From NCBI RefSeq assembly GCF_014595995.2, contig NZ_CP063989.1:2848107-2912106 (forward strand): 64,000 nucleotides of DNA, given 5' to 3'. Origin of the DNA: Actinomyces respiraculi. Its GTDB lineage: Bacteria; Actinomycetota; Actinomycetes; Actinomycetales; Actinomycetaceae. Position numbers and translations under genes: made by a program. The notes beneath the pieces were generated by a model. That model was not told the DNA's origin. It saw nothing but the letters and a program-made list of their open reading frames with translations, and searched no databases. This document shows positions 4,100 through 54,749 of the stretch, one piece after another. Numbering within the stretch: the stretch's first letter is position 1; every line of letters begins with the position of its first letter.

Positions 4100-4185
4100 A
4101 TGTGGACCCGCGTGCGGTGGTCCTGGGAAGACAGCCCGCCCGGCCTCTTACGGGTATATGTGGACCCGCGTGCGGTGGTCCTGGG
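4100..4185. repeat. 28-bp direct repeat pair with 30-bp spacer
   Basis: Identical 28-bp copies at 4100-4127 and 4158-4185 flank a 30-bp unique spacer. The pair lies between the DnaA-box cluster and the MATE gene. Both copies start ATGTGGACCC and end GGTCCTGGG. The layout resembles the 28/33 pairs at 24177 and 34067, but the spacer is 3 bp shorter. Confidence 0.9.
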
Positions 4186-18205: not shown

Positions 18206-18919
18206 ATGGCCACGCCGCCCCCTACCGCCCCGTCCGCCCCCTACCCGCACTCCCCTGTGCCGCCCTCGAACCCCGGCCCTCAGCCCTTCGCGCCCAAGCG
18301 CTCCTGGTTCGCCCGTCACAAGGTCCTCACCGGCCTCGGCGCCGTCGTCGTCATCGGTGCCGTGGCCTCCGCCCTCGGCGGTGGTCACGGCACATCCTCC
18401 ACCGCCGGCCCCCACGCCGACGGCACCACGGTCGCCAGCGCCCCCGCCACCCCCTCCGATCCCGCCCAGGCCGACACCGCCCAGGACAGCGAGGAGACGA
18501 CTGAGGAGGCAGGCTCCGAGGTCACCTTCCCGGGCATGAAGTCCGGCGACGTCGTCGCGAGCGGCGGGGAGACGGTGACGAGCGACGACGTGCAGATCAC
18601 GACGACGGCGCTCACCGCGGGTGACGCGACGCTGGGCCCGACGGCGTGCACAAGCGTCACGATCGTCAACAACAGCAAGAACCCGCTCGACGTCAACGCC
18701 TTCGACTTCACGCTCCAGACGCCGACCGGTGCGATCATCAACCCCACCTTCTCCGGTACCGACAACTTCCTGCAGTCCTCGACGCTCATCGCGGGCGGCA
18801 CCGTCACCGGCGATGTCTGCTTCGACCAGGACCTGACGGGCGGCGGCCAGTACGTCGTCCTCTACAAGCCGACGCTGTCCTTCTTCAAGGACCGCGTCGC
18901 CTGGGTCAACACTCTCTGA
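18206..18919 (+). CDS. DUF4352-type membrane-anchored protein
   Basis: 237 residues: a Pro-rich cytoplasmic N-terminus, one membrane segment (VLTGLGAVVVIGAVASALGGG, about 40-60), an acidic Ser/Thr linker, and an extracytoplasmic beta domain (about 115-237: VTSDDVQITTTAL, CTSVTIVNNSKNPLDVNAFDF, CFDQDL) that resembles DUF4352/telomeric-repeat-like folds. The two Cys residues could form a disulfide. AAGGAG lies 9 bp before the ATG. Function unknown; it is divergent from the two-component operon. Its 3' end is duplicated downstream. Confidence 0.75.
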   Translation: MATPPPTAPSAPYPHSPVPPSNPGPQPFAPKRSWFARHKVLTGLGAVVVIGAVASALGGGHGTSSTAGPHADGTTVASAPATPSDPAQADTAQDSEETTEEAGSEVTFPGMKSGDVVASGGETVTSDDVQITTTALTAGDATLGPTACTSVTIVNNSKNPLDVNAFDFTLQTPTGAIINPTFSGTDNFLQSSTLIAGGTVTGDVCFDQDLTGGGQYVVLYKPTLSFFKDRVAWVNTL

Positions 18920-19000
18920 CCCGGCCGGACCCCGGCTGAGCCTGTGGAGCCGGTGCCTGCTCCGGTCGCCTGGGTCAACACGCTCTGACCCGGCCGGACC
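18896..19000. repeat. 36-bp direct repeat pair with 33-bp spacer at a gene 3' end
   Basis: The last seven codons and stop of the DUF4352 gene plus 12 bp (18896-18931) recur at 18965-19000 with one mismatch, separated by a 33-bp unique spacer. The outer copy is noncoding. Confidence 0.9.
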
Positions 19001-24176: not shown

Positions 24177-24265
24177 CTCAGGCCCGGGTGCCTTCGAGGA
24201 CGAGCGAGGGCACACCCCGTCACTCACGGGCGCGGCCCTCAGGCCCGGGTGCCTTCGAGGACGAG
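24177..24265. repeat. 28-bp direct repeat pair with 33-bp spacer at the GH42 3' end
   Basis: Identical 28-bp copies at 24177-24204 and 24238-24265 flank a 33-bp unique spacer; period 61 bp. The inner copy holds the last eight codons and stop of the GH42 gene. Bases just outside the repeats differ, so the lengths are exact. Confidence 0.95.
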
Positions 24266-32615: not shown

Positions 32616-34325
32616 TCAGTCCCGAATGGTCAGGGGTGACAGGTCATGGACGATCTGGTGGGTGCGGACTGACACCGTGGTGACGCGGGCGATGAGGTCG
32701 AGGAGGTTGAGCGGCTGGGCGGGGGCTCCCGGCTCCACGCCAGCCCCCTCGTCCATCCAGTCATTGGGGTCGTTGACGATGCCGGAAGCCTTGTCAAACT
32801 TGATCTGGTAGCGGTCGAGGAGCCAGTCCAGGGCACTGCATGAGCCGACCAGGTAGTCCTGCGCCTGCTCCGGGATGCCGGAGATCGTGATGTGCTCGTT
32901 GTAGACGATGGCGCTCTTGTCATCGACCTTCGTGCCGTCCTCGCGGGTCGTGGCGTAGCGCATCTTCTCCACCCGCAGGCGGGAGGGGTCGAGGCCGGCC
33001 CGCTCCGCCCAGGACACCTAGATCCCGTTCACGGCGAGGGTCAGCGGCCAAGGCTCGACCTCCTCGTAGTCGAGGTGCAGGTCCGCTACGGCGCGCCCGG
33101 CCGTGGCCAGGGCGGTGAAGTCCTCACGGGTGGACACCAGCGGAATACGGGGCAGGGATTTCTTGAGGTCGGCGCCGTGGCGGGCGCGATACTCCGGGTG
33201 GTGGAGGAAGCCGTAGACGTAGTAGAAGACGTCGGCCTTCCCAGTCTCGGGCCCGTAGGCGGCGCGGTAGGCGTTGAGTGTGGCGTCTGTCATGTTGTCC
33301 ACACGCCGGTGGTCGCCGATGACTTCGCCCTCGCGTCCGACGGCGGAACCCGCCTCGCCCGGCGGCTCGCTGAGCGCGTCGAGGTTGAAGCCGTCGTCCT
33401 CGGCGGCGTGACGGCCCCAGACCTTCTCCCACGTCCACCGCGGGAAGAACTGGCCGGTATCCAGCGGATGCAGGTTCGGCACCGAGTCCACCAACAGTGC
33501 GCTGAAGTCGTGACGCGAGCTGACGCCGGTCAGGTAGAACCCCAGGTTGTCGTGCGCCGGCGTGGGAAAGCACTCGTAGAGCCGGCACATCATGTCGTTG
33601 AGCTGCCAGTCGAAGCAGCCATGCTTGACGAAGGGGCGGTAGACCGAGGTGTACAGGCGCCCCGCATCGGACCGGTAGGTGCGATGCTTTCTAACGTTCG
33701 CCTTGTCCACCCGGTTCCAGGAGAACAGGGGGGGTTGAGGAACTCCGGCTCGACACCGGCCTGCGCCTGTTCGTTGTAGTAGTCCACCATGGCGGAGACG
33801 CGCTGCGACAGCTGGAGAAGGGAGTAGGAGGAGACCTGCGCGTCATGATTGATCTTCAGCCCGTTGCTCCCCATCCGAAACACCCCAGCGGCCACGCCCT
33901 TGCCGCCGAGCGGCTGCCAGGTGGCGTACCTGGGGTCGCGCTGATTGATCCAGTCACCGGTCTCGTTGGGGTGAGATCCTCCCAGTCCATATCCTCCAGG
34001 CGTGAGCCCGCGACGATAGCGAGCTTGTCCTCACGGCGGAGATAATCGCCCACGTCCCGGTAGTGAATGGCGACCGGACCTGTGTGGGCAGGGTGTGACC
34101 GCCGCTAAGGTGTCCGCCTCGGAGGCGATGGCGACCGGACCTGTGTGGGCGGGGTCCTTGACGAGGAAGGTGACCGCGATCGTCATCCGTCCTCCCTGAG
34201 CAAAGACGTTTCCCCGCTCTCGCCTGTGCAGCTCGGCCGCGTAACTTGCGCGCCAGGTCCTCAGGCCGTATCAGCCCCGACTCCAGCAGCCGCACGATGA
34301 AGGTGCCCGTCCCGGTGAATGGGTC
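32616..34325 (-). pseudogene. Type ISP restriction-modification enzyme, C-terminal part (decayed)
   Basis: Continues leftward from methyltransferase motif I, DPFTGTGTFIVRLLESGLI (34325-34269), through fragments DVGDYLRREDKLAIVAGS, GVFRMGSNGLKINHDAQV and KANVRKHRTYRSDAGRLY, to the target-recognition end. The pattern is that of LlaBIII/LlaGI-like single-chain ISP enzymes. Damage seen: a frameshift after LARK, a large internal deletion that removes the NPPY region, a 61-bp insertion at 34067, a one-base loss near 33968, a frameshift at a seven-C run (33728-33734), and an amber codon at 33018-33020. The N-terminal part lies at 40089-40845, separated by a 5.8-kb insertion. Confidence 0.85.
34067..34155. 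repeat. 28-bp direct repeat pair with 33-bp spacer inside the ISP pseudogene
   Basis: Copies at 34067-34094 and 34128-34155 (one mismatch) flank a 33-bp spacer; period 61 bp. Deleting one repeat and the spacer joins the reading frame as DPAHTGPVAIHYRDVGDY, the expected ISP sequence. The unit is therefore an insertion with a 28-bp target duplication. Confidence 0.95.
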
Positions 34326-54538: not shown

Positions 54539-54749
54539 TGTTTCACGTGAAACATCGCGGACTTCTTCCGGATGTGTCGCAGTTCCACACGACCGTGGTT
54601 CATCTGGAAGGTCGTCGGGTAGCGGGGCATCACCCGCGCGCAGTTCCACACGACCGTGGTTCATCTGCTCCTGTGTTTCACGTGAAACACCCTGGCGGAA
54701 CCGATGCCAGTACGGCCCTGACAAGCGCAGCGATGTTTCACGTGAAACA
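54539..54749. promoter_or_regulatory. parS: Three parS sites between thrC and the aminotransferase gene
   Basis: Perfect TGTTTCACGTGAAACA at 54539-54554, 54674-54689 and 54734-54749. This 16-bp palindrome is the ParB-binding centromere site. The rest of the gap 54502-54893 holds a 29/32 direct-repeat pair and no gene. Confidence 0.95.
54578..54667. repeat. 29-bp direct repeat pair with 32-bp spacer among parS sites
   Basis: Identical 29-bp copies at 54578-54606 and 54639-54667 flank a 32-bp spacer; period 61 bp. If the shared flanking C is not counted the lengths are 28 and 33, as at 24177 and 34067. The repeat (CGCAGTTCCACACG...) is unrelated to those at the other loci and to parS. Confidence 0.95.

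Follow-up and report, generated by a model that had tools for sequence, protein, structure and literature searches.

The stretch of Actinomyces respiraculi DNA analyzed here (64,000 nucleotides; the window) carries at positions 34067 to 34155 a short insertion (the 34067 event) that is very probably a scar that the type I-E Cas1-Cas2 of this cell left by off-target integration, a process that recurred in this lineage. The sizes of insert and duplication, which match those of the resident array, the similarity of the targets as a group to the CRISPR repeat, and the existence of empty sites together point to a type I-E integrase acting off target, and it is from these features that we infer the agency of Cas1-Cas2 in the insertions. 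An ectopic spacer integration by this complex had been proposed in the initial annotation of the window, and the resident cas operon, the empty sites and the recurrent 28+33 structure support that proposal.

A repeat search of the window recovered the arrangement described in the initial annotation, namely two direct repeats of 28 nucleotides (ATGGCGACCGGACCTGTGTGGGC[A/G]GGGT) that are identical at 27 of 28 positions, lie 61 bp apart and enclose a spacer of 33 bp (see the table). The bases immediately beyond the two copies disagree at the left end as well as at the right end, which indicates that the duplication is 28 bp long with one internal mismatch, at position 34090. The nearest relative, genome G009, has a G at this position, as does the right copy, and the left copy was therefore probably mutated after the duplication. 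If the mismatch is taken as the end of the repeat, a split into a duplication of 23 bp and an insert of 38 bp is also possible. With the 28-bp reading, the insert has the usual length of a spacer in the array, and the duplication has the length of the native repeat.

Table. Coordinates of the insertions in the window and of the open frames next to the 34067 event
Feature	Position	Strand	Remarks
Left copy of the 28-bp duplicated target, 34067 event	34067..34094	.	Probably derived base at 34090
Inserted spacer, 33 bp, 34067 event	34095..34127	.	No second copy in this genome or in 48 congeners at up to 3 mismatches
Right copy of the 28-bp duplicated target, 34067 event	34128..34155	.	Base at 34090 mismatch as in G009
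Second event, 28+33+28, exact repeats	24177..24265	.	Right copy over 3' end of 703-aa frame
Third event, 28+33+28, exact repeats	54578..54666	.	Between 479-aa and 446-aa frames
Longer-duplication event, 36 bp (one mismatch) with 33-bp spacer	18896..19000	.	Over stop codon of 237-aa frame
Two open frames with Type_ISP_C (type ISP restriction enzyme C-terminal domain)	32616-33017, 33018-33710	minus	Pfam, comparison with G009

The comparison with relatives identifies the 33 bp as a true insertion. When positions 33750-34250 of the window were searched against 199 related genomes, matches were found in 20, the genome under study included, and one locus per genome was aligned for 14 of the 19 others (five genomes were left unaligned). 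Two of the aligned loci (L026 and L027) are not homologous at the site itself, and the insert is missing from all 12 that are. In G009, whose flanks are 91-97% identical depending on the stretch, the two halves of the region match at 2499624-2499969 and 2499941-2500064, with an overlap of 28-29 bp and nothing between them. Three differences from G009 within the target are common to both copies, which places the duplication after the split from G009. The claim of a 33-bp insertion with duplication of 28 bp is thus borne out by an empty 28-bp site at each homologous locus, and a type I-E system is likewise present in the genome. We also considered the reading of the gap as ancestral gene sequence, which the initial annotation had raised against its own proposal. 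We rejected it because the 33 bp are absent from the 12 homologous loci, because the 33-mer has no other occurrence within three mismatches in the whole genome, and because the frame running into the second repeat, inspected by eye, has a stop inside the gap.

The insertion was said to interrupt a dead type ISP restriction gene. The two neighboring frames match the Type_ISP_C family of Pfam with E values of 1.6e-47 and 2.6e-19, in agreement with this assignment. G009 has the same TAG at the end of the 33018-33710 frame and the same junction to an ABC-transporter fragment, which suggests that the gene was probably a truncated remnant before the insertion arrived; the earlier description needs to be refined in this respect. 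A scan of genome contigs with the 230-aa C-terminal frame returned two distant Sphingomonadaceae loci only, and these were set aside.

The genome contains one Cse1 and one Cas1 frame, and its frames for Cas3, Cse1, Cse2, Cas7 (CT1975-like), Cas5, Cas6, Cas1 and Cas2 all score above the Pfam cut-offs. The check for a type I-E cas operon and for its repeat length that the initial annotation had suggested thus found the operon, together with an array whose repeat measures 28 bp. This array, the only one in the genome, consists mostly of 28-bp repeats and 33-bp spacers: the 3' core of the repeat occurs in 107 copies in the array region, 93 of the 106 intervals between them equal 61, and 88 of the 94 spacers between adjoining exact repeats are 33 nt long, with C or G as the first base in 80 of these 88. 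A whole-genome pattern search for the native repeat, allowing up to three mismatches, gave 106 occurrences, all of which were assigned to the array (100 exact copies in L005 and six copies with three mismatches within the array). The resident repeats that a neo-CRISPR locus would have around an ectopic spacer are absent, as all 106 belong to the single array. Within the array, the C/G tract is expanded in several leader-distal repeats (L005:6091-7151, about 692090-693150 of G000:C1), and a block of 183 nt, corresponding to three repeat-spacer units, is exactly duplicated (L005:8895-9260). Across the genus, Cse1 is present in 29 of 49 genomes, the one studied here included.

The structure seen in the 34067 event occurs many times in this genome. 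We scanned 1,287,321 bases (1.29 Mb, 44% of the genome, array excluded) for two-copy, non-tandem repeats that match at 23 or more of 28 positions at periods of 40-100; tandem and multi-copy repeats were filtered out before counting. Seventeen of the resulting 59 pairs have a period of exactly 61, where about 0.5 would be expected, and 32 have periods of 60-62 (30 after the removal of two copies of one dispersed element), while the other 27 pairs are scattered over 58 periods, about 0.5 for each. Measured against the average for all periods other than 60-62, the Poisson probability of 17 pairs at period 61 is about 4e-21. The genome search for repeats 60-62 bp apart, a check put forward with the initial annotation and run here on 44% of the genome, therefore revealed a strong peak. 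Extrapolated by proportion, the whole genome would hold about 38 scars at period 61 and about 68 at periods 60 to 62 (roughly 40 to 70), and part of the more diverged pairs may be due to chance. A second method, which accepted repeats of at least 22 bp with at most one mismatch and placed no restriction on repeat length, yielded 31 pairs from this genome, of which 9 have a gap of exactly 33, the duplications being 27, 28, 29, 36 and 37 bp long; none of the eight pairs that it detected in seven relatives has this gap. With the cut-off at 20 bp, one low-complexity pair with a gap of 33 appears in G013.

Applied to 1.24 Mb from seven congeners, the first scan gave 24 pairs, two of them at period 61. 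The five congeners with Cse1 (G009, G013, G005, G044 and G015; 820 kb) account for 16 pairs, of which four lie at 60-62, including a single one at 61. The two without Cse1 (G029 and G007; 420 kb) account for eight, of which two lie at 60-62, again including one at 61. Given the scarcity of pairs in the five Cse1-positive congeners, the possession of a type I-E system alone fails to explain the abundance of scars. Candidate explanations for the excess over the sampled relatives are a high expression of cas1-cas2, a less specific integrase, or the loss of a specificity factor. Both pairs at periods 60 to 62 from the Cse1-less congeners lie in G029 (L108:18736 and L115:9413, one at period 60 and one at 61) and are possibly relics of a type I-E system that was lost.

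Several structures with related dimensions deserve separate mention. A period-62 structure is found in three near-identical copies (L045:4509, L192:5858 and L194:2949), and represents either a single insertion into a sequence that is itself dispersed, or a repetitive element that only imitates the signature. At positions 4100-4185 of the window, two identical 28-bp copies are separated by 30 bp (period 58); this arrangement, perhaps an atypical event, was left out of the counts, as were exact duplications of 79 and 75 bp with 34-35 bp between the copies (L082:5926 and L111:3459), which by eye look like whole tRNA genes.

Empty sites were found for four events, the 34067 event and those at L048:11377, L048:12354 and L068:6547. 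The first of these further three, with a 37-bp duplication and a 33-bp insert, has an empty counterpart in G005 with an overlap of 35 bp, and also in other genomes, e.g., G038, G025 and G044. The event at L048:12354 (27+33) is empty in G005, where the overlap is 27 bp, and in G035, where the identity is 98-99% and the overlap 26 bp. For L068:6547 the genome itself contains a paralogue with the empty site (G000:C1:78930-79258), and G041 has the empty site too, in both cases with an overlap of exactly 28 bp. For the second event in the window (24177) one flank alone could be aligned in the relatives at hand.

For the spacer of the 34067 event, the genome itself, 48 congeners, plasmids, phages and viral contigs gave partial matches only, so that the comparison with phages and plasmids recommended earlier produced no source. 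Three viral contigs, searched with three exact sub-patterns of the 33-mer, have 18-20 nt in common with it; we treat these matches as chance and do not accept them as the source. For the ectopic spacers as a set, we compiled 32 events (the 30 at periods 60-62, L048:11377 and the event at 18896 of the window), and left out the dispersed element L045:4509, which matches only its own copies, for a denominator of 31; L198:810, which matches at 23 of 24 nt with seven mismatches over the full spacer, was kept in the denominator as a miss. Near-full copies elsewhere in the sampled 44% of the chromosome (30-33 identical of 32-34 nt) exist for nine of these 31 spacers. Two of the nine are in the window: the spacer of the third event matches L079:13894-13926 at 31 of 33 positions, and that of the longer-duplication event matches L085:19822-19854 at 32 of 33, the latter being the one self source of the nine that lies in a repetitive stretch. 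Reversed ectopic spacers, used as a control, had no near-full copies. The 88 array spacers had none either, and at the same E limit no match with 20 identities was obtained for them; at a looser limit their best chromosomal match covers 21 of 23 nt. The difference between 9 of 31 ectopic and 0 of 88 array spacers is significant (Fisher p 2e-6).

Provided that the sample is representative, extrapolation would give a self-derived share of about two thirds for the ectopic spacers. Three whole-genome searches pull against this figure: allowing up to three mismatches, no self source was found for the spacers of the 34067 event, the 24177 event or L080:15349, the latter two having been chosen because the first 887-kb sample gave no source. 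No consistent PAM was recognized by eye next to the nine self sources. We regard neither a PAM nor an identified source as a requirement for off-target integration, and their absence lowers the detail of our interpretation, not the identity of the event.

The targets were compared with the native repeat using the 11 period-61 targets from the first 887 kb. Their mean best identity to the repeat is 12.9 of 28, against 9.8 for composition shuffles, 9.5 for neighboring 28-mers and 9.8 for shuffled repeats, and the observed value was reached by 0 of 5000 trials in each of the three controls. When the period-62 events were added, or when only the near-exact events were used, a fraction of at most 0.0006 reached the observed value. 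This resemblance is a tendency and not a rule, because the 34067 site itself matches the repeat at 10-11 of 28 positions, no better than chance. The six oriented sites on which an upstream leader-like motif and the orientation of the insertions were examined are too few.

An alternative explanation for the copied spacers is that a short patch was templated into the chromosome during break repair, with duplication of 28 bp and without Cas1-Cas2; the nine of 31 spacers that copy other chromosomal places are what template switching would give. However, repair patches to our knowledge have no ruler, and sizes would not be expected to be fixed, yet 9 of 31 pairs have a gap of precisely 33 and 17 of 59 a period of precisely 61, the same values as in the resident array. 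The similarity of the targets as a group to the CRISPR repeat also argues against this explanation, which we consider very unlikely. The recurrence of insertions of fixed size could also reflect the activity of a miniature transposable element, with 33 bp inserted (the element or its footprint) and 28 bp of target duplicated. The inserts listed, as judged by eye, have neither a sequence nor termini in common, and the 28-bp duplication exceeds those of the known transposases, all of which, as far as we know, make shorter ones; we give this possibility almost no weight. The chromosome is rich in GC and in repeats, and its short tandem repeats are indeed numerous, but an origin of the pairs by chance or by ordinary tandem duplication is hardly credible given that tandem and multi-copy repeats were filtered out and that 17 pairs at period 61 stand against about 0.5 at each other period, and it is refuted for the four events whose empty sites demonstrate insertion.

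Off-target integration by the resident Cas1-Cas2 would proceed as follows. The complex would capture a 33-nt prespacer and attack a chromosomal target on both strands, at points separated by 28 bp, and the filling of the gaps would duplicate these 28 bp on both sides of the new spacer, in the same way as the leader-proximal repeat is duplicated when the array gains a spacer. The target of the 34067 event would have been a restriction gene that was probably dead already. The ectopic spacers would be copied in good part from the cell's own chromosome. Self spacers would be harmful in the array; off-array copies without the CRISPR repeat should give no crRNA, and so should persist. Cas6 needs the hairpin of the CRISPR repeat, and because the resident repeat is absent at the off-array sites we infer that no crRNA is made there and that self spacers survive for this reason.

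It appears reasonably likely that the type I-E Cas1-Cas2 of this lineage has been a chronic insertional mutator of low specificity, which left tens of 33-bp inserts with 28-bp duplications around the chromosome, perhaps mostly derived from the chromosome itself. The scars would then constitute an unselected fossil record of captures, among them self spacers of the kind that are lost from the array through autoimmunity. Arrays hardly allow the fidelity of adaptation, or the frequency with which self DNA is captured in nature, to be measured, because a self spacer in an array is harmful. Scars outside the array are expected to be free of this selection and would thus provide a direct count of the errors of a wild-type integrase, of its target preference and of the ratio of self to non-self. 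The scars also suggest that CRISPR adaptation contributes small insertions to natural genomes and offers a way in which new arrays could arise. Any type I-E genome can be screened for the signature of 28-bp repeats at a spacing of 61 bp.

Nivala, Shipman and Church in 2018 reportedly obtained off-target integrations in E. coli by overexpression of the type I-E Cas1-Cas2, and are said to have listed several natural neo-CRISPR candidates. That system reportedly resembles the one described here in the spacer-sized insert outside the array, the repeat-sized duplication and, for the targets as a group, the preference for sites like the native locus. It reportedly differs in that the integrations were induced by overexpression, with several natural candidates, whereas here we estimate 40-70 natural scars, with four empty sites and an excess of self spacers. 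Canonical spacer acquisition by a type I-E system, at the repeat next to the leader, yields the same 28-bp duplication, 33-bp insert and period of the resident array; its target is the CRISPR repeat, whereas the targets here are non-repeat DNA outside the array. According to two reports, overexpression of Cas1-Cas2 leads to integrations in non-array regions, and IHF-like motifs favor such integrations (PMC11788318, PMC9456107). The ectopic acquisition reported for the type II-A CRISPR3 of Streptococcus thermophilus also places spacers at a non-standard position, but inside the array, whereas the insertions described here are in unrelated chromosomal DNA (PMC7999890). Among the papers found by searching, judged from titles and the openings of abstracts and mostly outside subscription journals, none reports a single genome with tens of natural scars outside the array, or an excess of self spacers among such scars. 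Off-target integration is thus reportedly already known as a kind of event, and it is the scale of the phenomenon and its bias toward self sequences that look new.
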